Assembly (NCBI GenBank): GCA_037482015.1
Contig: JBBFKT010000001.1
Coordinates: 778,584-842,583, forward strand
Length of the DNA stretch: 64,000 nucleotides
Direction: 5' to 3'
DNA from: Thermodesulforhabdaceae bacterium
Lineage (GTDB): Bacteria; Desulfobacterota; Syntrophobacteria; Syntrophobacterales; Thermodesulforhabdaceae
The position numbers and the translations under genes are program-made. The notes below the pieces were generated by a model, which made no database searches, had not been told where the DNA came from, and worked only from the letters and a program-made list of their open reading frames with translations. Shown here one piece after another: positions 5,072 through 57,230 of the stretch (positions are counted from its first letter, which is position 1; each line of letters starts with the position of its first letter).

Positions 5072-5227
5072 GCTCGAGTTGAACTATCTACCAAGAAATT
5101 CCTTTATCGTTTATTTCCTTAGGTAACCAAAGTTTCTGTGCCCAGACTCTGTGTCTCTGTGTTGAGATTAATTTGTCTTATGAATATTGACCACTGTTTA
5201 CCCTCTTTGATATGAATTTCCCGTGAA

Positions 5228-5431
5228 CTACTCAGGTGCTCCATGAAGGAGCATAATAGGGAACCTCGTGAAAGTCGAGGGCGAGCCCATCGCTGTGATC
5301 GGGGACGAAGGTTGCAAGATAAGCCACTTTCCTATTAATCGGGAAGGGAAGGCGCAGCCGGAGGATGATCCGAGAGCCAGAAGACCTGCCTGAGTAGGCT
5401 GTAGCTAGGGCGGGGGGAGAAAAGCCCTAAC
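5228..5431 (+). promoter_or_regulatory. Cobalamin (AdoCbl) riboswitch
   Basis: The leader of cobN contains the conserved cobalamin aptamer elements in order: GGTGCTCC, AATAGGGAA, GTGAAAGTCGAGGGCGAGCC, CATCGCTGTGATCGGGGACG, AGCCACTTTCC, GGGAAGG, GATGATCCGAGAGCCAGAAG, ACCTGCCTG. The closing P1 helix is a perfect 9-bp pair, CTACTCAGG (5228-5236) with CCTGAGTAG (5389-5397). A further hairpin, TAGGGC/GCCCTA (5406-5429), follows with a G-rich loop that could serve as the kissing partner. The terminator at 5466 supplies the expression platform, so high B12 should switch cobN off. Confidence 0.96.
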
Positions 5432-5519: not shown

Positions 5520-8500
5520 ATGAGACCTTACAGACTTTGTTATTTTTCCGCAACCGCCACGGATATACCTTCCCTGAGCGAGGGAGTGAGACGGTTCAAA
5601 GCCTTCGGAGGAAAGATAGATGTTTATGCCAGAACTCAGGGACAACTCCTCACCCAGTCCGCAAGGGAAGCCTTCATTCGCAACGCTTTAGATGCCGATG
5701 CAGTTATAATAACTTTTCATGGAGGGACGGCTTCTTTCCCTGCCTTTCCTATTTTCGCCGAGGCCTTCTCCGAAGGTCGATCCTATGGTCAACGTCCTTA
5801 CCTTCATCTACAACCCGTAGGAGGAATGGACGAAGATGCCATGGAAGCTGCAAGAAAATTTTCCACAGACTTTGGAAACCCCACCTGGGATACCGTAAAT
5901 TTATACCTGAACTATGGCGGCGCCTTTAACATAGAAGAACTTCTAAAATTCCTTCACAATCGGCTTTTCGGAACAGATCTTCCATGCTCACCACCTGTTC
6001 GCCCGCCAGAAGAGGGCATTTATCACCCTGATTTTCCAGGTGTTACATCTCTCGAGGATTATCTTGATGTTGTCAGAGGGTGTTTCAGGTTCTCTCCCGA
6101 GTTTACCGTTGGACTGTGGTTTTATCAAAGTTACTGGCTTAATGGTAACCTTGAGTTTGTCGATGCTATCATCAGATCTGCCGAGGCTCACGGTGCTGTA
6201 GTGATACCCGTTTTTCACCTTCGGTATCGTGATAAAGAGCGTGGAAATCGTGGAGCCAAGGAAGTAGCAGAAATGTTTTTTATGGACGGCGACCGTCCGC
6301 GCATTGATGTGCTTATAAATCCTCTTCTTTTCTCCTTAACACTTGCGTCACCTGACCATCGCTCCATCCTCCCTCAGCTTAATGTTCCCTGCATCCAGGC
6401 AATTACTTCCATGGCACCTTTTTCCTTCTGGAAGGAGTCTCTTCAGGGACTTTCCATAATGGACGTTGCTTATTCTGTGGCTCAGCCTGAGTTTGATGGA
6501 ACTCTTATAACGGTTCCCGTAGCCACGAGAGAAGAAGAATCTATTGATCCCATCACAGGTGCAGCTATTGTTAAATTCAAGCCCATACCTGATCGGGTTG
6601 ATAAATTGGTGAGGCTAGCTCTTAATTGGGCTCGTCTTAAAAAGACTCCTGTAGAAGAACGTCGGGTCGCCATAGTATTTCACAACTATCCTCCCAGAAA
6701 CGATAGAATAGGGTGTGCTGCAGGACTCGATAGCTTTGCAAGCGTTAAAAAACTTCTCGATCGAATGAAGGAATCCGGCTACAGAATTGATCGCACCTAT
6801 TCTGATGGCGATGAACTGGCTCAGGAACTCCTTTCTCGTATGACATGCGACCAGCGATGGCTTCCTATAGAGGAGATGGCACGAAGAGCCGAAGCTTTTG
6901 GTAATTCGGAGGATATAAGCCGCTGGCACAGCGAGCTTCCCCTATCCGTTAAGGAAAAGATGCGTTCCGATTGGGGCAATCCTCCAGGTGATCTGTTTGT
7001 GCATGGGGGCAAGATGTATTTCTCTGGATTAATCAACGGAAATGTCTTTATTACAATTCAGCCACCTCGGGGCAGATTGGAAAACATTGAGAAAATATAC
7101 CATAGTCCGGATCTTTCTCCGCCGCACCACTACCTGGCTCACTACCGCTGGATACGGGATATCTTTGGAGCTCACGCTGTTGTGCATGTTGGAAAACATG
7201 GGTCTCTCGAGTGGCTACCTGGAAAGTCTGTTGGGCTTTCTGGAGAATGCTATCCTGATCTCGCCATAATGGAACTTCCCAATGTTTATCCATACATAAT
7301 TAACGATCCCGGCGAAGGAACTCAGGCGAAACGACGTTCTTACGCTTGCATAATTGACCATCTAACACCGTCTATGACCAACGCTGATCTTTACGACGAT
7401 CTTGCAAAAATTCAGGAACTCGTGGCGGACTATCAAATTGCCTCAACGGAAGATCCAGCTAAGCAGGAAGTCCTTCGTCCCATGATATGGGATGCTGTAG
7501 AGAAAGCCCATCTGGAAAAGGATCTCGCCATAACAAAAGAAGAAGCCTTCAGGGATTTTGACGGCTTCCTCGAAAAGCTTCACGCTTATCTCGGTGAACT
7601 GAGCGATACAATGATCAACGACGGGCTTCACGTGATGGGGGTTCCTCCTGAAGGAGATCGACTTGCAGAGTTTCTCGTTCAGCTTACTCGTCTTCCAAAC
7701 GGTGATGTACCATCTCTCAGGGAATCGATTATTTCTTTTTTTGGCTTTGATTACGACGATGTTTTAGAAAACCGAGGTAAACGTCTCGGGCGCTTTGGCG
7801 GAAAGACCGGGGCCGAGATTTTACGCATTGCTCATGAAAAAGCCCTTGAATTGGTTCGTCGGCTTCAAGTTGAGGATTTTTCTCTTGAAGCTGTTCCCAG
7901 GGTTACCACTCAGGTTCTTGGAAAGCGAGTTTCTCAAGTTGAAGCTGTGCTTTCTTACATAGCCGGGACTTTGGTTGATAATGTTCGAGCCTGCCGCGAG
8001 GAGATTAATTCATGTCTTAGTGCTTTTTCTGGAGGCTTTGTGCTTCCTGGACCTTCGGGAGCGCCAACTCGAGGTCAGGCAGACATACTTCCCACGGGAA
8101 GAAATTTTTATTCAGTTGATCCTAACAAGATCCCAACTCCGGCAGCCTGGGAAGTTGGTGTTAGACTGGGAAAAGCTCTGCTGGAACGCTGCCTTAAGGA
8201 AAAAGGAAACTACCCCGAAAGCGTGGGTATTCTGGTTTTTGCTACTTCTACGATGAGGACAAGAGGGGACGATATTGCGGAAATCTTTTATCTTATGGGC
8301 GTGAAACCGGTGTGGCAGAAGGGAAGCGGAAATGTGATAGGGCTTGAGGTAATACCTCTCGAGGAACTGGGGCGCCCGAGAATCGACGTGGTTCCAAGAA
8401 TAAGTGGGCTTTTCAGAGATACCTTTCCAAACCTTGTTGAACGAATAGATGAAGCTGTTCAGATGGTAGCAACTCTTAAGGAGACAGCGGAATCGAACTT

Positions 8501-9314
8501 TCTGTTGAGGCATGTTGAGCAAGATATGAGAGAATATCTCGCAAGGGGCATGAATCGTGATGAAGCCTTTCGTGAGGCCACGCTCAGAGTGTTCGGTTGT
8601 CCTCCCGGAACTTATGGAGCTGGAGTGGCGGAACTTATCGAGTCTAAGATGTGGAAAACTCAGGAAGATTTGGGAAATATCTACATCAGGTATTCTTCTC
8701 ATGCTTATGGTAGAGGTGTCTATGGCAAAGCCAGGCAGGAGACCTTCCGAAAAGTATTGTCTCGGGTTGATACAACGGTAAAGAATGAAGATTCTCGGGA
8801 ATACGATATGATGTCCTGTACTGATTATTACAACTATTATGGCGGACTTATAGCAGCGGTGAAGACTGTTAGAGGATTCCTGCCGTTTGCTACCATGGGA
8901 GATAGCGCTGATCCAAGGCGCATTAAGATTAGAACTACTCAGGAAGAAGCAAAACATGTGCTGAGATCCAGACTTGTTAATCCTAAATGGCTCGAAGGAA
9001 TGAAGCGGCATGGCTTCAAGGGGGCCGGCGACATTTCTCACGTGGTTGATATTGTTTTTGGGTGGGATGCTACTGCGGAAGTTATGGAAGACTGGATGTA
9101 TGAAGAAATTGCAAGAACCTATGCTTTGGATCCAGCTATGCGTGAGTGGATGAAGAGAGTAAGCCCTTTTGCGCTCCAGAATATCCTGGATAAATTACTT
9201 GAGGCTATTGCTAGAAATATGTGGAAGGCATCGCCGGAAATGGAAGAGAAGCTAAGGGAGATTTTGCTCGAGATGGAGGGCGAGATAGAAGAATGGAGTG
9301 ATCGTAGTGAATAA
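5520..9314 (+). CDS. cobN: Cobaltochelatase subunit CobN (magnesium-chelatase H family)
   Basis: 1264 residues, the full length of the large CobN/BchH-type subunit that binds the tetrapyrrole and, with an AAA+ I/D-type partner, inserts the metal. The region around residue 557 (GKHGSLEWLPGKSVGLS) is the characteristic CobN/ChlH motif; PSGAPTRGQADILPTGRNFY (near 850) and the C-terminal DYYNYYGGL segment (near 1100) also fit. The cobalamin riboswitch in its leader argues for cobalt rather than magnesium as substrate. The ATG follows GAGGAG. No ChlI/ChlD-type ATPase gene is next to it, so the partner must lie elsewhere. The following TPR gene is about 120 bp away and probably separate. Confidence 0.94.
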   Translation: MRPYRLCYFSATATDIPSLSEGVRRFKAFGGKIDVYARTQGQLLTQSAREAFIRNALDADAVIITFHGGTASFPAFPIFAEAFSEGRSYGQRPYLHLQPVGGMDEDAMEAARKFSTDFGNPTWDTVNLYLNYGGAFNIEELLKFLHNRLFGTDLPCSPPVRPPEEGIYHPDFPGVTSLEDYLDVVRGCFRFSPEFTVGLWFYQSYWLNGNLEFVDAIIRSAEAHGAVVIPVFHLRYRDKERGNRGAKEVAEMFFMDGDRPRIDVLINPLLFSLTLASPDHRSILPQLNVPCIQAITSMAPFSFWKESLQGLSIMDVAYSVAQPEFDGTLITVPVATREEESIDPITGAAIVKFKPIPDRVDKLVRLALNWARLKKTPVEERRVAIVFHNYPPRNDRIGCAAGLDSFASVKKLLDRMKESGYRIDRTYSDGDELAQELLSRMTCDQRWLPIEEMARRAEAFGNSEDISRWHSELPLSVKEKMRSDWGNPPGDLFVHGGKMYFSGLINGNVFITIQPPRGRLENIEKIYHSPDLSPPHHYLAHYRWIRDIFGAHAVVHVGKHGSLEWLPGKSVGLSGECYPDLAIMELPNVYPYIINDPGEGTQAKRRSYACIIDHLTPSMTNADLYDDLAKIQELVADYQIASTEDPAKQEVLRPMIWDAVEKAHLEKDLAITKEEAFRDFDGFLEKLHAYLGELSDTMINDGLHVMGVPPEGDRLAEFLVQLTRLPNGDVPSLRESIISFFGFDYDDVLENRGKRLGRFGGKTGAEILRIAHEKALELVRRLQVEDFSLEAVPRVTTQVLGKRVSQVEAVLSYIAGTLVDNVRACREEINSCLSAFSGGFVLPGPSGAPTRGQADILPTGRNFYSVDPNKIPTPAAWEVGVRLGKALLERCLKEKGNYPESVGILVFATSTMRTRGDDIAEIFYLMGVKPVWQKGSGNVIGLEVIPLEELGRPRIDVVPRISGLFRDTFPNLVERIDEAVQMVATLKETAESNFLLRHVEQDMREYLARGMNRDEAFREATLRVFGCPPGTYGAGVAELIESKMWKTQEDLGNIYIRYSSHAYGRGVYGKARQETFRKVLSRVDTTVKNEDSREYDMMSCTDYYNYYGGLIAAVKTVRGFLPFATMGDSADPRRIKIRTTQEEAKHVLRSRLVNPKWLEGMKRHGFKGAGDISHVVDIVFGWDATAEVMEDWMYEEIARTYALDPAMREWMKRVSPFALQNILDKLLEAIARNMWKASPEMEEKLREILLEMEGEIEEWSDRSE

Positions 9315-47500: not shown

Positions 47501-47713
47501 AATGGTAATATATCTGTTGTGCATGCTCAATTAACCCATGAAGAAAGAAAAAAAAGCCGTGCTGCTATTGCAAGTCTTTTTGGAAATTCCCTAAAACTTG
47601 CCAATAAATTTAGCAAGGCAGATTTCGATGAGCTAATCGTTAAAAGAATTGCAAGAGAAAAAGCCTTCTGGGAAAGTGATGTTGATCCTATTGCTTATAT
47701 CACTGGAAAGTAA
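44582..47713 (+). CDS. Methyltransferase - GT4 - TPR - GT2 multidomain glycan enzyme
   Basis: 1043 residues. Residues 30-190: class I SAM methyltransferase (ILLDIGCGMMPYKDFI near 48, RVLTPGGVFLFTTSF). Residues 260-640: GT4 glycosyltransferase (YVVHFHGSDIYNYD, LAIGKFVEENDLHTTIKAFQ, EARLIIVGDGPFLENCKKLA, FMTILEAGSKGLPIIGARH). Residues 680-745: a TPR-like hairpin (YLQLEFPEEALSCWERVI). Residues 757-1000: GT2 domain of the SPSQxDD family (VHILLLTMNRKPLLEKTF, NIGCPGGHNWM near 823, FIEDDVLDF near 850, SPSQLDDVDFGIRARKAGY near 950). AAGGAGA precedes the ATG. The combination suggests building and O-methylating a surface or flagellin glycan. It is controlled by its own sigma-54-type promoter. Confidence 0.88.
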   Translation: MKLSENPTTSFDEFINLSRISDITDRYVILQTIREAISQHVFLLSGILLDIGCGMMPYKDFILKNNPNIKEYIGLEFEEGKYKASKGANLVWDGDTIPLADSSVDCVTAVEIIERCKNPLRILKEIRRVLTPGGVFLFTTSFLWSYHGIPNDYYKYTPFSIKKLLLEAKFEDFQIKPLGGWHAAFAQMMGLWIKRAPLSEETRQQFFKELYPLYLKLLEEARKEHVKPESEHALTPGWIAVAYASYNEKGIDRVTIPPILNTPIKICFFSDVHHDYFQMLTEDYFFYLDPDIKVIRGGTLPMFDQDKKCVLNPSFFDAIKGLPPDKVLSIYTKFLADYLRREQFDVVFAEFGVVGANVYKACEEASIPYVVHFHGSDIYNYDIIKQYEKSYLEIFKGASYLVTASKSVREKLVSLGAPSEKIILNPYGTLVKTHEMANPETAPPIFLAIGKFVEENDLHTTIKAFQKVISAVPEARLIIVGDGPFLENCKKLAGDLGIGDNVIFTGACNRKSVAKFMMNSRALVQCSMSNSDISSEELFMTILEAGSKGLPIIGARHTDITDVVVDGEHGFLVDKDNWQELAEAMILLAGNPRLARIMGNKFKRRVRANHSVGRYVIALKKTLMKAAGKDKIIAVYSSEFMSQSQKQLGEKTTFPVTSKTGKYRILERQLFELTLKKDFKTIVNVAKGEQYRTPLVDYFLGNAYLQLEFPEEALSCWERVIRHGDLSFQFVRRRFEQLKNYPDMVIGKNLLYGDEPKVHILLLTMNRKPLLEKTFECLGKTDYRNYKVFLLDNCSNDGTKEILPGLRNFLPKWIDFTFESLPTNIGCPGGHNWMLTYWDHSEADFIVFIEDDVLDFKPSWLRLFVNTFTLSNNIKMVGSKTLQMNGAIQDAFAIVRGVRNSATVEIFTHRDEPDFGQYDLITNIPDYVIECFTMFRKDIFDKVGLFDISLSPSQLDDVDFGIRARKAGYDIVYNGNISVVHAQLTHEERKKSRAAIASLFGNSLKLANKFSKADFDELIVKRIAREKAFWESDVDPIAYITGK

Positions 47714-48016
47714 GGTTTGATCGGAAAGTTGTGTTTGGTAAAGTTCTATCTTTTAAGGTGGTTACAGAACATTGTAATTCGAAAAAGTGGCTGTGATGAA
47801 AATACTTGAAGGTTGTTGAAAAATTTTACTTTGCGTTTACGAGTAAAGACACAGCGGTAGTGTTCCATTGACATCAATTAAAGATTCATGAAAGTGCTGA
47901 GGCTAGAAAATTAGATTATCATGGCGACCAGTATTCATAAATATGCTTAACTTTTTGAAGCTTTGATAAGAGGGGATTCACTACGGTAACTAGAAACCTT
48001 TTCTTAAGATACGAAA

Positions 48017-48096
48017 GGTCAAGATTGTATATCCGGTGATGTATACGTGAAGTATTGTTTCTCCAATCTTATTCCACTTCCTTCTCCCCCTTGACC
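48017..48096 (+). promoter_or_regulatory. Structured leader RNA of the TonB-receptor operon, class unknown
   Basis: GGTCAAG (48017-48023) can pair with CTTGACC (48090-48096). Inside, AAGATTG (48021-48027) pairs with CAATCTT (48064-48070) and GTATA (48027-48031) with TATAC (48042-48046). The first two helices share AAG and so compete, as in switching RNAs. The terminator at 48153 follows. I see none of the conserved cobalamin, MoCo, FMN or TPP aptamer motifs. The rest of 47714-48240 has no gene. Confidence 0.45.
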
Positions 48097-48152
48097 AATC
48101 CCTTTGTTTCCTATAAAAAATCCTCCGAATCGTAACAGAACACGAAGCCAAG

Positions 48153-48200
48153 AAGGCGTCAAAAGAAGGGGAAGAAGTCTCCTTCCTTTGGCGCCTTTTT
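48153..48200 (+). terminator. Attenuator-like terminator before the TonB receptor gene
   Basis: AAGGCGTCAAAAGAAGG (48153-48169) pairs with CCTTCCTTTGGCGCCTT (48181-48197) with one internal mismatch, followed by TTTTTATTTT. It lies 440 bases after the previous gene but only about 25 bases before the ribosome site of the next, so it is better explained as leader attenuation than as the end of the upstream transcript. Confidence 0.75.
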
Positions 48201-48240
48201 ATTTTGGTGAAACTAAAATACAAAAAGGAGGATGGCGGAT

Positions 48241-50481
48241 ATGAGATGGGTTGGTTTCTTCACGGTCTTTCTTTGTCTTAGTTTGGTAAGCTGTCCGTCG
48301 ATGGCTTATGAAAATGAACAGATGCTTGAAGAAATCGTTGTTACGGCTACACGAACCGAAAAAACAATTGAGTCTTCCCCAGCTTCCACCGCTGTTGTTA
48401 CAAAAAAAGAAATTGAAATCCGAGATGTTAGAACCATTGATCAGGTCGTAAATGATATATCGGGCGTAACGGTGCGAAGAGGTAAAGGGCTCATGGACAC
48501 TTTGTCATCCATTACTTTGCGCGGTATCCCGGGAGCCGAGAGAACTTTGATACTCATGGACGGTATGCCTTTGAATAACCCATATACCGGCGGTGTTAAA
48601 TTCGGTGGATTTTATCCTGAAGACCTGGAGCGAGTAGAAGTGGTTAAAGGACCCTTTTCCAGCCTATACGGTGGCTATGCAATGGGTGGTGTGGTAAACT
48701 TCATTACAAAAATGCCAGAAAAGCGTGAAGTGACACTCAAAACCGGTTATGGCTCCGGTTTCGATCGAGGCAATGCTATGGATGATCTAACAAGACTCTA
48801 CTTCTCCTATGGCGACAAAATAGGAGACAGCCTCAGTTTTCTCGTAAGTTACGGTCGTCAACACACCGAAGGTTACCCATCCGATTTCAACGTCGTAAGT
48901 AAAACTCCACCTTCAGAGATCACCGGCTGGAAAGAAACCAAAGATCGTTACGGTAGAACGGCATACCTTGTCGGCGATAAGGGGGATAATACCTGGTGGG
49001 ATGATGGGATTACTGTGAAAGCTCAGTATAGCTTTTCGCAAGACACAAAACTTGGTTTCACCTTTATGAGAAATCGTTATGAATACGACTATGAAGAACC
49101 TCACACTTACCTGAGGGATGCTTCCGGAAAACCCGTCTATTCCTATTCTGGCTTGTCGGAATACTCTTTTTTGCCTGGTGGAGGCGGACGCACCCAAAAT
49201 ACCTATGGACTTAGTTTTGAAACTACACTTCTCCAAAATCTCGCCACAAAGATTAATCTCGCATACCTTGACACTGAAAAAGACTGGTATGTTCAGACTC
49301 AAACTGGAGCTACCTGGTCTAAGGGCGGACCTGGATATATAAGTTCAACACCACAGGAGGCTTTCAACGGGGATATACAATTTAGCCTTCCTGTTGGTCA
49401 GATCCTGGGCGATATGCCACCTTTCGTGAGCGGTCAAATACTCACCTTCGGTGGGTCTTTCAGGTGGGGAAGTTCAGACACTAAAGAGAAGAACCTGAGT
49501 GACTGGCGAGATGAAGATTCTACGACAAACCTTCGATACAATTCCAAAGGTAAAACCAAGCTTTGGGCGATTTTTGCTCAAGACGAAATACCCATAATGA
49601 AGAACCTTACAGCCTACGTAGGACTTAGATATGACTGGTGGGAAAGTTACGATGGCTATGTCTTAGATATCGACACCAAAACATGGCAACCAAAGCCAGG
49701 ATATCCAAAAGAATATGATTCCCGCTCTGATTCCTACTTAAGCCCCAAATTCGCTCTGGTCTATAAACCCTTCGAATCGACAACTCTTAGAAGCTCCGTA
49801 GGTGAAGCCTTCAGAGCTCCAACGCCCTACGAGCTTTACCGCACATGGACTTCGTCATCGGGCATAACCTACGCAGGAAATCCCAATCTTAAGCCGGAAA
49901 CAACTCTTTCCTGGGATATCGGACTAGAACAAAAGCTCTGGGAAGGTGCTAAAGTTTCCATTACTTATTTTGAAAACTACATGGAAGATTTAATTTCCCG
50001 CAAAACAGTGAGCTCAACTTATCAGGAGTATACAAACGTTGGTAAAGCCGAATCTCGCGGCGTGGAGTTTGAAGCAGAACAATGGCTGAATAAGTGGCTT
50101 AAGGTTTACGGTAATTTTACCTATACCGATTCTGAAGTTACGAAAAACCCGGCAAAACCGGAGACAGAAGGAAAGCGACTTATCGGCGTCCCGCTCTGGA
50201 AGGGAAACATAGGAGCACAGTTCGAAAAGGCTCCCTTTAGAGCGTCCATCGTGGGCAGATACATGGGGAAATGGTATAACGATGACACCAATGCTGACAA
50301 GCACAGCGGAGTTTACGGGTCTTACGATCCTTACTGGGTGGTGGATTTGAAAATTTCCTACGACATTACCAGGTGGTCCACAGTTTCTTTCGTTATCGAC
50401 AACCTGTTTGATGAAGATTACTACGTCTATTACAAAGCTCCCGGAAGATCCTACTTTGCCGAAGTGTCAATAAAATTTTAG
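48241..50481 (+). CDS. TonB-dependent outer-membrane receptor
   Basis: 746 residues. The ATG at 48241 is chosen because AAAGGAGG ends 9 bases before it; the ATG at 48232 overlaps that site. Signal peptide MRWVGFFTVFLCLSLVSCPSMA, TonB box EEIVVTATRTEKT, plug domain with VNDISGVTVRRG, LRGIPGAERTLILMDGMPL, YPEDLERVEVVKGPFSSLYG and AMGGVVNFITK, then the 22-strand barrel ending in SYFAEVSIKF with terminal Phe. GEAFRAPTPYELY and NPNLKPETTLSWDIGLEQ are standard barrel motifs. It imports a metal chelate or corrinoid; the following FepB-type binding protein is probably its periplasmic partner. Confidence 0.94.
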   Translation: MRWVGFFTVFLCLSLVSCPSMAYENEQMLEEIVVTATRTEKTIESSPASTAVVTKKEIEIRDVRTIDQVVNDISGVTVRRGKGLMDTLSSITLRGIPGAERTLILMDGMPLNNPYTGGVKFGGFYPEDLERVEVVKGPFSSLYGGYAMGGVVNFITKMPEKREVTLKTGYGSGFDRGNAMDDLTRLYFSYGDKIGDSLSFLVSYGRQHTEGYPSDFNVVSKTPPSEITGWKETKDRYGRTAYLVGDKGDNTWWDDGITVKAQYSFSQDTKLGFTFMRNRYEYDYEEPHTYLRDASGKPVYSYSGLSEYSFLPGGGGRTQNTYGLSFETTLLQNLATKINLAYLDTEKDWYVQTQTGATWSKGGPGYISSTPQEAFNGDIQFSLPVGQILGDMPPFVSGQILTFGGSFRWGSSDTKEKNLSDWRDEDSTTNLRYNSKGKTKLWAIFAQDEIPIMKNLTAYVGLRYDWWESYDGYVLDIDTKTWQPKPGYPKEYDSRSDSYLSPKFALVYKPFESTTLRSSVGEAFRAPTPYELYRTWTSSSGITYAGNPNLKPETTLSWDIGLEQKLWEGAKVSITYFENYMEDLISRKTVSSTYQEYTNVGKAESRGVEFEAEQWLNKWLKVYGNFTYTDSEVTKNPAKPETEGKRLIGVPLWKGNIGAQFEKAPFRASIVGRYMGKWYNDDTNADKHSGVYGSYDPYWVVDLKISYDITRWSTVSFVIDNLFDEDYYVYYKAPGRSYFAEVSIKF

Positions 50482-52456: not shown

Positions 52457-52484
52457 AACATAATTTATGGAGGTGTTTTCTACG

Positions 52485-54344
52485 ATGACCGAAGCACGCT
52501 ACGTGGTTGGAATTGATCTTGGAACCACCCATTGCGTGGTGGGATATGCTCCAATAACTAAAGATCTGAAGCCAGACATACAAATCTTCCACATCCCTCA
52601 AATTATAGCTCCTCACGAAATAAAGCCTCTTCCACTTCTTCCGTCATTCCTTTTTATGCCGGGACCCCACGATGTTCCTCCGGGTAGTTTGCGTATGCCA
52701 TGGGATGATCCCAGCATTGAACCTGAATGCGTTGTGGGAGAATTTGCAAGACAGCGAGGAGCAGAACTGCCTCACCGGCTTGTATCTTCTGCCAAGTCCT
52801 GGCTTTGTCATTCCGGCGTTGACCGCACTCAACCCATTCTCCCCTGGGGAAGTCCAAAAGATGTAAGGAAAATCTCGCCCGTGGAAGCTTTATCGCGTCT
52901 TCTTATCCACATCCGTAACGCCTGGAATTACGAGATTGCAAAGGGCGACCCAGAACTTTCCCTTGAACATCAGGACATGCTCATAACAGTGCCGGCTTCC
53001 TTCGATGCCGTAGCCCGCGAATTGACCGTCCAGGCTGCTCGAATGGCAGGTCTGGAACACTTTACTCTCCTTGAAGAACCTCAAGCCGCCTTTTACGGCT
53101 GGATTTACGACCATGAAGAAGTCTGGCGTGATCTCGTAAAGGTAGGGGATCTTATCCTCGTTTGTGATGTGGGGGGAGGCACAACAGATTTCAGCCTTAT
53201 AGAAGTTTCCGAAGACGACGGGACTCTTTCTCTAAAGCGTATAGCCGTAGGGGAACATCTTCTTCTTGGTGGGGACAACATGGATCTGGCTCTAGCTTAT
53301 CTTCTTCGCCAGCGGTTGCCTTCTCGTCTCGATGAGTGGCAGTTCCGAATGTTATGGTATCAGTGCCGTATTGCCAAGGAAAAGCTTCTGGCTCGCAAAG
53401 AAGTTCAATCCGAACCTGTGGTCATCCTGGGAAGAGGAACTTCTCTTATAGGGGGCACATTGAGAACTGAGCTTAACCTTAAGGATATTAACGAGGTCAT
53501 CCTTGAAGGATTTTTCCCTTTCTGTTCTCTCGATGACGTTCCCAAGAAAAAGCCCAGGATAGGTGTTCGAGAAATGGGCCTTCCCTATGAAGATGATCCA
53601 GCTATTACCGTCCACATGGCATATTTCGTTAGACGCCAGATCAAGGGTGGTGATATCTTCCCAACGGCGATTCTTTTTAACGGCGGAGTTATGAAAGCCG
53701 AGCCCTTCAGGCGAAGAATCGTTGAAGTGATTGAATCCTGGGGTAGAGCAGGTGAGGTTAGAGATCTAACGGCTGGAAGGGCTTATTCCGGCAGCTCGGA
53801 AGAGATTTCCAGAGCTACAGAACTAGATCTTGCGGTTGCTAAAGGTGCCGCCTATTACGGTTTTGTGCGTCGCGGTAGGGGCGTGAGAATTCGTGCTGGT
53901 GCTTCCAGAACCTACTACATCGGTATAGAAAGTTCCATGCCATCGGTTCCGGGCATACCCACCCCGGTTAAGGCTCTGTGCGTTGTGCCTTTTGGAATGG
54001 AGGAAGGCACATCGGTTGAACTCAAAGAGCAAGAGTTTGGGCTGGTTGTGGGACAGCCTGCAGTGTTTACTCTTATGGCATCAACGGTGCGGCAAGATGA
54101 CGAAGCTGGCGCTGTCGTAGAAGACTGGGAGGAAGTCATTCAACCTGTAGCAACAATGGAAACTATGCTTACGCCAGCCGAAGATACTCAATCACAGGAT
54201 GATACTGAAGGAACAATCGTTCCCGTATGGCTACAAAGCAGTATGACTGAGGTGGGAACTCTTGAACTCCACTGCGTAGATGCGATAAACCCTCAGCGTA
54301 AGTGGAAATTAACCTTTAACCTCAAGGAGAGAGAATCAAGCTAA
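52485..54344 (+). CDS. Hsp70-like ATPase protein (cassette copy 1)
   Basis: About 619 residues using ATG 52485 (GGAGGTG 9 bases upstream). The N-terminal actin-like ATPase domain is complete: VVGIDLGTTHCVVGY (phosphate 1), LTVQAARMAGLEHFTLLEEP, LVCDVGGGTTDFSLIEV (phosphate 2), LLGGDNMDLALA (adenosine), and LFNGGVMKAEPFRRRIVEV. The C-terminal ~170 residues do not show the canonical DnaK substrate-binding domain, hinge or lid, and there is no EEVD-like tail. It is therefore an Hsp70 relative rather than DnaK. It lies 3 bases before a longer paralogue, with which it may form a heteromeric complex along with DUF2760. Confidence 0.92.
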   Translation: MTEARYVVGIDLGTTHCVVGYAPITKDLKPDIQIFHIPQIIAPHEIKPLPLLPSFLFMPGPHDVPPGSLRMPWDDPSIEPECVVGEFARQRGAELPHRLVSSAKSWLCHSGVDRTQPILPWGSPKDVRKISPVEALSRLLIHIRNAWNYEIAKGDPELSLEHQDMLITVPASFDAVARELTVQAARMAGLEHFTLLEEPQAAFYGWIYDHEEVWRDLVKVGDLILVCDVGGGTTDFSLIEVSEDDGTLSLKRIAVGEHLLLGGDNMDLALAYLLRQRLPSRLDEWQFRMLWYQCRIAKEKLLARKEVQSEPVVILGRGTSLIGGTLRTELNLKDINEVILEGFFPFCSLDDVPKKKPRIGVREMGLPYEDDPAITVHMAYFVRRQIKGGDIFPTAILFNGGVMKAEPFRRRIVEVIESWGRAGEVRDLTAGRAYSGSSEEISRATELDLAVAKGAAYYGFVRRGRGVRIRAGASRTYYIGIESSMPSVPGIPTPVKALCVVPFGMEEGTSVELKEQEFGLVVGQPAVFTLMASTVRQDDEAGAVVEDWEEVIQPVATMETMLTPAEDTQSQDDTEGTIVPVWLQSSMTEVGTLELHCVDAINPQRKWKLTFNLKERESS

Positions 54345-54347
54345 CTC

Positions 54348-57230
54348 ATGAGCACATTCAGAAACACTATCCATGACTATCGCTACATAATTGGGATCGA
54401 CCTGGGAACAACAAATTCAGCCGTAGCTTATGTGGATTTAGCAGAGGATGTAAAATCTCCCGATTCGGCAATTCGTATCTTTGAAATTCCCCAGTATGTG
54501 GCTCTGGGAGAGATATCAAACCGCCCTGTATTGCCATCCTTTCTTTATCTGCCGGGGAAATATGATCTTCCCAGAGAGCAGCTTTTTAGACTTCCTTGGG
54601 AAAGCGATCAGGATGAAGTCACTGGTATAGTGGGAGAATTTGCTCGCCAGCAGGGATCTACTGTCCCTCACAGGCTTGTATCCTCCGCCAAATCGTGGTT
54701 GTGTCATGCCAGAGTGGACCGCAAGGCAAGGATTCTTCCCTGGGGAACAAAGGAAGCCGAAGATCTTCGGAAGGTCTCACCGGTGGAGGCAAGCTCGCGG
54801 TATATTGAACACATCCGTAACGCCTGGAACTTTGTTATGGCTCGAAACTCCGCCAGCTCGGCTTTTGAGGAACAGCTTATTGTTCTTACCGTGCCGGCTT
54901 CCTTTGATGAAGTTGCCAGAGAACTTACGGTTGAAGCCGCCCGCATGGCTGGTATCCCCAGGCTGGTTCTTATCGAAGAACCTCTTGCAGCCTTCTATGG
55001 CTGGCTTTCAAAGTATTCTCACAACTGGCAGGATATTATACGTCCCGGGCAGATTGTGCTTATCTGTGATGTTGGAGGTGGAACTACTGATTTAACCATT
55101 GTAGCTCTTAGAGAGTCCGCCACTGGAGAAAGGAACCTGCAGTTCGACCGTCTTGCCGTGGGTGATCATCTTCTTCTCGGTGGAGACAATATGGACATTG
55201 CTATCGCTCGCCAGGCTGAAGAAAAACTCACTGGAAAGATTGGTTCCCTTGACACCAGAAGATGGCATCAGCTCTGTTATCAGGCTCGCAAGGTAAAGGA
55301 AGAAATACTCAGCGATCCATCCATATCCGAAACAAAATTTACCGTTCTCGGGCACGGTTCCCGCCTTATCGGGGACACGCTCTCCACCACAGTTGAAGCC
55401 GACCATTTACGAAAGCTTATTCTTGATGGCTTTTTCCCCTTTGTGCCAATCGATAGAAAACCGATTTCTACTCAGCGAAGCGGCATTGTGGAATGGGGAC
55501 TTCCCTATGAGCAGGATCCTGCCATCACAAGCCATATTGCCTGGTTCTGGAAGCGCTTTGAAAGCTTTACGGCAAGAGAAACCGGCCGGGAACGTCCTTA
55601 CCCCGACTTTGTGCTCTTCAATGGAGGAGCTCTGACCCCGGCTCAGATTAGATCAAGAATTCTCGATGTTGTCGAAAGCTGGTTTGGCGAGAAACCCCAA
55701 GAACTCGTCGGTCCCAGGCTTGATCTCGCCGTGGCGGTAGGAGCTGCATACTACGGTCTGGTGCGATTGGGAGCAGGAGTAAGAGTTGGAGCCGGTAGTC
55801 CTCGATCTTACTACATCGTTGTGGGGAAGAAAGATAAGGATCTGGAAGAAAGAGAAGTCCAGCGAGAATATGATGCATTGTGCATTGTGCCCAGGGGGAC
55901 GGAGGAAGGCTTTGAGTATAAAATCGAAGGAGAGGGTTTTGAAGTAATATCCAATCAGCCGGTCTCATTCCAGCTCCTTGCTTCTACAACAAGAGTAGAG
56001 GACAGACTTGGAGAGATCGTAACACTTTCAGAAGATGATGCTGTGTTGCTTCCCCCGATTTATACTGTTTTGAAATTTGGCAAGGGCGAAGAAAGACGAA
56101 CGATTCCGGTAGGTCTTGGAGTCCGCCTCACAGAGGTGGGGACTCTGGAGATGTGGTGTCAGTCCATCAAAACACCCCATAAGTGGCAACTTCAGTTTGA
56201 TGTGAGAGAAACATCAGAGACCGAGCGAGAGGAAGCGGTTCGAGAAGGTCGTGTGGTAGAAGAAACGGTTGACTATGAGCGCATTGAACAGGCGGTGGGG
56301 CTCGTGTGCGATGTGTTTGAGCATAAGAAAATGGAGCCGTCGGAGCTTGTTAAAGCTTTGGTTGAAGCCCTGGCAATGCCAAGAGAAAAATGGCCCATTG
56401 GGGTTGTCAGAAAAATTGCCGATGTGCTCCTTGATCATGAGCAGGGCCGAACCTTTTCTTTCCATCACGAAGCGAGATGGTTCAATCTGCTTGGCTTTTG
56501 CCTTCGCCCCGGGTTTGGTGATGTGCTGGATGAGTGGCGAATGAAACGGGTCTGGAAGCTGTTTCCGCGGGATCTTGTTTTTCCGCGCCAGGTTCAGTGC
56601 AGGCTTGAGTGGTGGATATTCTGGAGAAGAGTTTCTGGAGGGCTTACATCGGGTCAGCAGTGGCATATCTATCAGCTGGTTTCGTCTTTAGTGCATAATG
56701 AAGGGCAGGGCAGCAAGAAAAAGAAGGTTAAGACTCTTTCGCCTCAGGAAGCCATAGAATTGTGGATGACTCTCGCAAGCTTCGAACATCTTCCCGTTGA
56801 CGTGAAGGTCAAGCTCGGTAGAATTTTTCTTGAGAAGCTTCTTAAAAGTGGTCGTCCATCTCCAAAGGATCTGTGGGTAATTGGAAGAATTGGAGCAAGA
56901 GCTCTTCTCTATGGATCCGCCGATAAGGTTGTTCCTCCGGAAGAAGTTATAGGCTGGTTGGATAAGCTCCTCAAAAAAGGCTTTCCTGTGGATGAAGCTT
57001 TTGGATATACTTTGCTTAGTCTCGTGCGGGAGACTGGAGATCGGGCAAGGGATGTGCCCGAAGATGTGCGAGAACGCACTTATAAGGTAGTTCTGAAGGT
57101 ATTGTCAGAACAAAAGATTAGATCCTTTACCGAAAAGGTGGGATCCTCCTGGGGAAGACAGGCTCAAGAATGGGCTTTTGGAGAAACGTTGCCGCCGGGA
57201 ATTGTTATCAAGGATGCAGGTGATGAGTGA
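54348..57230 (+). CDS. Hsp70-like protein with C-terminal DUF3731 extension (cassette copy 2)
   Basis: 960 residues. Residues 1-620 parallel copy 1: IIGIDLGTTNSAVAYVD, AARMAGIPRLVLIEEPLAAF, LICDVGGGTTDLTIVAL, LLGGDNMDIAIA, FVLFNGGALTPAQIRSRIL. Residues 630-960 are a mostly helical DUF3731 region with many Trp (HHEARWFNLLGFCLRPGFGD, RLEWWIFWRRVSGG, LWVIGRIGARALLYG, SWGRQAQEWAFGE). No J-domain or GrpE partner is present nearby. Starts 3 bases after copy 1, indicating coupled expression. The family is known from diverse proteobacteria without an assigned client. Confidence 0.92.
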   Translation: MSTFRNTIHDYRYIIGIDLGTTNSAVAYVDLAEDVKSPDSAIRIFEIPQYVALGEISNRPVLPSFLYLPGKYDLPREQLFRLPWESDQDEVTGIVGEFARQQGSTVPHRLVSSAKSWLCHARVDRKARILPWGTKEAEDLRKVSPVEASSRYIEHIRNAWNFVMARNSASSAFEEQLIVLTVPASFDEVARELTVEAARMAGIPRLVLIEEPLAAFYGWLSKYSHNWQDIIRPGQIVLICDVGGGTTDLTIVALRESATGERNLQFDRLAVGDHLLLGGDNMDIAIARQAEEKLTGKIGSLDTRRWHQLCYQARKVKEEILSDPSISETKFTVLGHGSRLIGDTLSTTVEADHLRKLILDGFFPFVPIDRKPISTQRSGIVEWGLPYEQDPAITSHIAWFWKRFESFTARETGRERPYPDFVLFNGGALTPAQIRSRILDVVESWFGEKPQELVGPRLDLAVAVGAAYYGLVRLGAGVRVGAGSPRSYYIVVGKKDKDLEEREVQREYDALCIVPRGTEEGFEYKIEGEGFEVISNQPVSFQLLASTTRVEDRLGEIVTLSEDDAVLLPPIYTVLKFGKGEERRTIPVGLGVRLTEVGTLEMWCQSIKTPHKWQLQFDVRETSETEREEAVREGRVVEETVDYERIEQAVGLVCDVFEHKKMEPSELVKALVEALAMPREKWPIGVVRKIADVLLDHEQGRTFSFHHEARWFNLLGFCLRPGFGDVLDEWRMKRVWKLFPRDLVFPRQVQCRLEWWIFWRRVSGGLTSGQQWHIYQLVSSLVHNEGQGSKKKKVKTLSPQEAIELWMTLASFEHLPVDVKVKLGRIFLEKLLKSGRPSPKDLWVIGRIGARALLYGSADKVVPPEEVIGWLDKLLKKGFPVDEAFGYTLLSLVRETGDRARDVPEDVRERTYKVVLKVLSEQKIRSFTEKVGSSWGRQAQEWAFGETLPPGIVIKDAGDE

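Follow-up and report, generated by a model that had tools for sequence, protein, structure and literature searches.

The window analysed here, a 64,000-nucleotide stretch of a Thermodesulforhabdaceae genome (G000), holds a gene for a TonB-dependent receptor followed by one for a FepB/BtuF-type periplasmic binding protein, both preceded by a structured leader whose parts are collected in the table. NCBIfam models for haem and B12 receptors matched the receptor protein below cut-off only. Elsewhere in the window, two adjacent genes for large Hsp70-like proteins (the first of which was scanned) lie at 52467-57230, with a small gene before them.

Table. Parts of the receptor leader and the genes that follow it, in window coordinates
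Feature	Position	Strand	Basis
Helices of the original prediction; not conserved, overlapping the putative promoter	48017..48100	+	fold and similarity search
Putative sigma-70 promoter	48091..48119	+	geometry of sister copies only (comparative position)
Promoter elements: -35 TTGACC; -10 TAAAAA; spacer 17 nt; alternative -10 TATAAA	48091-48096; 48114-48119; alternative 48112-48117	+	
Predicted transcription start	~48126	+	
Degenerate first-hairpin (P1) region	48130..48147	+	fold
P2, competing (antiterminator) hairpin GCC-AAGAA-GGC	48147..48157	+	-2.5 kcal/mol alone
Intrinsic terminator	48151..48205	+	fold, -31.1 kcal/mol; R2 match 48129-48204
Post-terminator GAA-loop hairpin (UAUUUUGGU-GAA-ACUAAAAUA)	48200..48220	+	fold
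Shine-Dalgarno GGAGG of the TonB receptor	48227..48231	+	sequence
TonB-dependent receptor (P0001), 746 aa, start ATG 48241	48241..50481	+	PF07715 5.8e-24, PF00593 6.8e-59
FepB/BtuF-type periplasmic binding protein (P0002), 332 aa	50502..51500	+	PF01497 3e-33

The original prediction described a strong intrinsic terminator directly before the ribosome site of the receptor gene, and both its strength and its placement are borne out. The terminator stem (48151-48163/48187-48199) encloses an inner stem (48165-48172/48178-48185) and ends in a U-run at 48196-48205; the folding energy of segment 48124-48240 is -41.6 kcal/mol, where shuffled sequences give -24.5 +/- 3.3 (z -5.1). Known aptamer cores, said to be lacking, are indeed absent from the leader: it scores below the gathering threshold of every Rfam family, and relaxed thresholds return chance-level matches only. 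The nested helices placed further upstream fared less well. They do fold (-17.5 kcal/mol, z -2.8, equalled by 2 of 200 shuffles), but they are not conserved, and a DNA similarity comparison of the leader (47715-48240) with 39 relatives gave nothing better than E 0.08, which is chance level. Moreover, the 3' arm of the outer helix (48090-48096, CTTGACC) includes the putative -35 box, and because this TTGAC box at 48091 lies inside the helix, the geometry of the sister copies suggests that the outer helix is upstream of the transcript. In most of 46 other copies of the element, a TTGAC-type -35 plus a -10 stands shortly 5' of the first hairpin; a consensus promoter scan of the window did not include this promoter among its calls. 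An inverted repeat, GTATATCCGGTGATGTATAC, lies at 48027-48046, upstream of the putative promoter, and is a possible operator.

Between promoter and terminator, pairing in the P1 region consists of UCGU...ACGA (48130-48133/48142-48145). A C[ACGAA]G loop motif at 48141-48147 overlaps this pairing and lacks a stem beyond its closing pair; P1 is clear in many sister copies and is not so in the window copy. P2 is of more consequence, in that its loop and 3' arm make up the 5' arm of the terminator. A pair of competing pairings had been anticipated in the original prediction and a conserved competitor of the terminator does exist, but it is P2, which had not been singled out.

The family to which this leader belongs emerged from a collection of receptor orthologues whose leaders were read for shared structure. 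Leaders of the same kind (L003, L004 and L005 from the same family, and L074, L075, L080 and L081 from Thermodesulfovibrio/Nitrospirae and uncultured records) show a TTGAC-like box and then small hairpins; the final one places its 3' arm inside the 5' arm of the terminator. Over eight leaders the invariant core is C-A-N-G-A-A-G-G-C. A covariance model built from six orthologue leaders, the window excluded (R1), was searched against 395 genomes of the window's phylum, Desulfobacterota (matches in 41), against 295 of Nitrospirota, the phylum to which the Thermodesulfovibrio record belongs (matches in 26), and in 7 chosen genomes. From the two phylum searches 88 of 89 matches could be read, with an antisense duplicate match (G419:C7:132444-132509) left out. 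A GAA-loop hairpin with a stem of at least 4 bp is present in 45 of the 88; reassigning by hand one match with a 3-bp stem (G507) gives 46 with the motif and 42 without, instead of 45 and 43. The matches with the motif come from 9 of the 395 and 18 of the 295 genomes. The same architecture thus turns up 46 times in genomes of Desulfobacterota and Nitrospirota: small hairpins whose loop is C[ANGAA]G or C[NGAA]G, of which one shares an arm with a covarying terminator. The family has no match in Rfam.

Covarying pairs in orthologues were a proposed check of the original prediction, and the terminator stem supplies them strongly. Over the A7 structure, 97% of cells are paired and 87 cells changed on both sides, against 22.5 in shuffles (0 of 500 as high), a figure that takes in the fitted helix 1. 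The fitted P1 columns of the methyltransferase class in A7 proved not to be a real P1, making helix 1 unusable as evidence. The P2 loop and its closing C-G are the most conserved part of the family; nearly all A7 rows read GGUC-AUGAA-GGCC or close to it, and no compensatory change in P2 occurs over A7. Since P2 is invariant there, its support comes from sequence conservation and from variants outside A7, such as AAGCTC-AGAA-GAGCTT in the nickel-transporter class, where the terminator takes up P1 instead. On paper, antiterminator and terminator are mutually exclusive, one arm of P2 being an arm of the terminator, and both are conserved.

Repetition of the hairpin is the second mark of the family. 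Another GAA-loop hairpin lies upstream in 29 of the 46 leaders (200 shuffles: mean 0.19, maximum 3) and in 0 of the 42 look-alikes. The upstream count includes up to 7 leaders in which the hairpin scored was P2 itself, the motif assigned to P2 there being a later one, within the terminator or beyond it. The upstream stems vary around a constant loop (ACCC/GGGT, AGCC/GGCT, AGTC/GACT, GGTC/GACC, GATC/GATC and others). After the terminator, a GAA-loop hairpin occurs in 19 of 46 copies (shuffled mean 0.33) and again in 0 of 42 look-alikes; the post-terminator hairpin of the window would correspond to these.

The window copy is a weak member, with three pairs in P2 and no proper stem in P1. A second model trained on 34 sequences without the window (R2) nevertheless has its top match in the window at this leader (26.4 bits, E 0.0024; next match 14.6 bits) and also finds the same-genus copy L003. 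R1 gave the window copy E 0.11 only, in 124 kb, and the whole-genome model searches, whose first pass scores only some candidates, did not list it among their matches; a broad pattern search of its own genome returned chance-level matches only. Two stronger copies exist in that genome, one (C4:67716-67782) before a TonB receptor gene and a gene for a DUF4198 protein, the other (C2:68582-68649) before a FecCD-ATPase-CobN operon. Group II intron fragments lie upstream of the latter copy (L123 1375-1647). A further R2 match in the genome (C2:205350) was rejected as a family copy, being a look-alike terminator before DAHP synthase. At E <= 1, R2 matches 7 of 33 receptor loci, the window's own and L003 counted in. 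The remaining receptor loci have other leaders, two of them with a cobalamin riboswitch (L076 5677-5899 by Rfam; L063 by eye).

A different structured leader stands before receptor orthologues at L007, L008, L009, L010, L011, L059, L061, L062, L066, L067, L082, L083 and others, at most a few hundred nucleotides ahead of the receptor start. It consists of a long G+C-rich hairpin with an apical ...GGCCAAGGAA-like loop, often followed by a stretch able to pair with GGAGGTG; the leaders of this type that were tested have no Rfam match, and at L229 one stands after the GAA-loop element.

It could be argued that the terminator is an ordinary one, constitutive or belonging to the upstream gene, with regulation exerted elsewhere, for example by a repressor at the palindrome at 48027-48046. 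The terminator is strong by itself and the inverted repeat is there; yet the upstream gene ends at 47713, some 440 nt earlier, the sister copies show a promoter-like box 5' of the terminator despite unrelated upstream genes, and the conserved loop motifs are nothing that a plain terminator needs. For the repressor variant, a NikR-like box is absent near the leader. We consider this account improbable. The description as a previously unrecognised regulatory leader without a known aptamer was right.

What the element precedes gives the family its likely purpose. The 46 copies, most of which come from related genomes and so are not independent events, stand before genes sorted by hand into 25 TonB receptors, 8 NikMQO/CbiMQO-type Ni/Co ECF transporters, 9 lone methyltransferases, 2 FecCD-ATPase-CobN operons and 2 ExbBD-TonB operons. 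The 42 look-alikes without the hairpin precede genes of aromatic, leucine and tryptophan biosynthesis (DAHP synthase, LeuA, TrpE) and unrelated genes. A Plug domain is encoded downstream of 24 of the 46 copies and of 0 of the 33 look-alikes that were scanned, those of the 42 with a first ORF within 600 nt (Fisher p 1e-7); on the look-alike side this covers the 25 commonest of 40 families, among which neither a receptor nor a Ni/Co transporter appears. Within the regulon, both of the tested ECF operons of the eight carry NikL above its curated cut-off. Seven element-led receptor operons also encode an ATPase; one of these ATPases was tested, and it matches CooC, the accessory protein of CO dehydrogenase, over its length (E 3.4e-18). 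By its position, the DUF4198 protein may be the NikK described in PMC545781.

The stand-alone methyltransferases are SAM methyltransferases, found after the element at L168, L169, L170, L171, L203, L206, L209, L211 and L215; a further methyltransferase gene is the first of an ExbBD-TonB operon in G126. Terminators that look much the same occur at L125, L127, L131, L138, L139, L256 and elsewhere, in several cases ahead of DAHP synthase, LeuA or TrpE; those before these biosynthetic genes are probably amino-acid attenuators.

Taken together, these observations lead us to propose, with moderate confidence, that the leader attenuates transcription in a regulon for nickel (possibly cobalt) uptake, with termination as its default state and read-through when a factor stabilises the GAA-loop hairpins. 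Transcription would start at the position predicted in the table, and the first RNA to emerge would fold into P1 and P2, small C-G-closed hairpins with ANGAA or NGAA loops, until the P2 loop and 3' arm are drawn into the far more stable terminator. With P2 at -2.5 and the terminator at -31.1 kcal/mol, the RNA should terminate without help, so that the default outcome would be termination ahead of the receptor gene. Uptake genes ought to be active under metal scarcity, and a helper is therefore expected to act at low metal: a putative factor would then hold the GAA-loop hairpins in place, the terminator could not form, and receptor and binding protein would be made. That the mini-hairpins are repeated and identical points to a protein as the reader of the loops, and such a near-identical series is no less characteristic of protein-read attenuation than of a riboswitch. 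The factor would accordingly seem to be an RNA-binding protein acting in trans, not the metal. Of this proposal, the most solid part is a new family of attenuators in a Ni/Co uptake regulon; least solid are what triggers the switch and how strong the copy in the window is.

A leader peptide could in principle be the helper, since an AUG lies in the loop of many copies and would be the start codon within P2, and the reading frame continues into the gene at several of the methyltransferase copies. Elsewhere the loop reads ACGAA or AAGAA (AAGAA in the window, either in sister copies), so that the start codon is gone, and a conserved reading frame was not seen; we give peptide-based attenuation scarcely any credence.

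Direct metal sensing deserves more weight, although we still think it rather unlikely. Here the tandem GAA-loop hairpins would dock on each other, bind Ni2+ (or Co2+) and shift the balance of the terminator without any protein. The same regulon and architecture data fit, conservation is highest in the loops and the pairs that close them, hairpins stand both before and after the terminator, and in one operon the element stands in tandem with a cobalamin riboswitch, as a pair of ligand sensors would. However, the conserved core is tiny and repeated two to five times per leader, which is unusual for an aptamer, and metal-stabilised P1 and P2 would switch the uptake genes on when metal is abundant, the opposite of what import calls for. 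Should metal sensing apply all the same, tandem mini-hairpins would form a new class of metal-sensing RNA that switches nickel import and replaces NikR in Nitrospirota and some Desulfobacterota, a prospect we rate just as cautiously. Of the suggestion that a novel riboswitch or attenuator controls the receptor and binding-protein operon, a regulated leader without a known aptamer stands, with much firmer support than the window by itself could give, its element being present at 46 places and most of these before metal-uptake genes; the word riboswitch, in the sense of direct ligand binding, would fit the less likely mechanism.

For the protein-read attenuator that we prefer, nickel appears to be the signal. 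None of the 21 element-bearing genomes tested yielded NikR; in the window's genome, which is 95% complete, PF08753 (nikR) was not found. NikR is present in both Thermodesulfobacterium-type genomes with an element-less receptor orthologue, a comparison that comprises only these two hand-chosen positive control genomes. Between 47700 and 48240, neither form of the NikR operator (GTGTTAC-N13/14-GTAACAC or GTATGAT-N13-ATCATAC) has a match with up to three mismatches. Cobalt or corrinoids may also serve, because cobalamin riboswitches precede two receptor orthologues and one FecCD operon.

A shared element defines a regulon, and its members can therefore be proposed as nickel/cobalt genes: the receptors, the ECF transporters, the CooC-like ATPase, the CobN-like chelatase and the methyltransferase. 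Control of nickel uptake in NikR-less anaerobes thereby becomes directly testable. If the hairpins are read by a protein, that protein would represent a new family of RNA-binding metal regulator; if the metal itself reads them, the element would be a new riboswitch class.

Several known systems invite comparison. The guanidine-II (mini-ykkC) riboswitch has two small hairpins with identical conserved ACGR loops. The likeness to the present element is in the paired small hairpins and their identical loops; unlike here, the loop is ACGR, and guanidine-II was rejected as the identity of the element, the loops being different and an Rfam match lacking. Cobalamin riboswitches (RF00174) meet the family at two points, controlling the receptor orthologue L076 and standing in tandem with the element in G001, the nearest relative of the window's genome in the set, where a cobalamin riboswitch (L124 5247-5453, minus strand, 76 bits) lies about 140 nt upstream of the GAA-loop element, before FecCD-ATPase-CobN. 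The textbook cobalamin riboswitch noted elsewhere in the window was recovered at 5217-5407 (117 bits), the only RF00174 match in the window and thus none in the receptor leader; it precedes a CobN cobaltochelatase gene (5520-9314).

ANTAR sites, as bound by EutV and NasR, come closest in layout: according to PMC3369931 they comprise a pair of hairpins, of which the second overlaps an intrinsic terminator, with hexanucleotide loops that have A1 and G4. Were a dimeric ANTAR protein to act on the present leaders, the two mini-hairpins, P2 over the terminator and termination by default would all be in keeping with that description; the two-hairpin layout is seen across the family, and in the window P2 alone is convincing. 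Unlike the loops described there, those here are ANGAA or NGAA, the regulon is one of metal uptake, and the ANTAR domain (PF03861) was found in 4 of the 27 genomes searched, not in the other 23, and is absent from the window's genome, which makes an ANTAR site very improbable.

NikR, according to PMC545781, controls nikMNQO/nikKMLQO in delta-proteobacteria; the kind of target operon is alike (NikK, NikL, NikMQO), and the difference is that NikR acts as a repressor at the level of DNA. The czcD (NiCo) riboswitch is likewise an RNA element tied to nickel/cobalt. It has no Rfam match in the window at gathering scores, in the leader at relaxed thresholds or in the sister loci searched, and the literature searched, with most subscription papers and preprints outside its scope, yielded no published RNA element for nickel uptake. 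The known NiCo members precede efflux genes, according to PMC9294342, so that nickel-linked RNA elements have been known, within these sources, before exporters; the element described here stands before importers, in genomes where NikR was not found.
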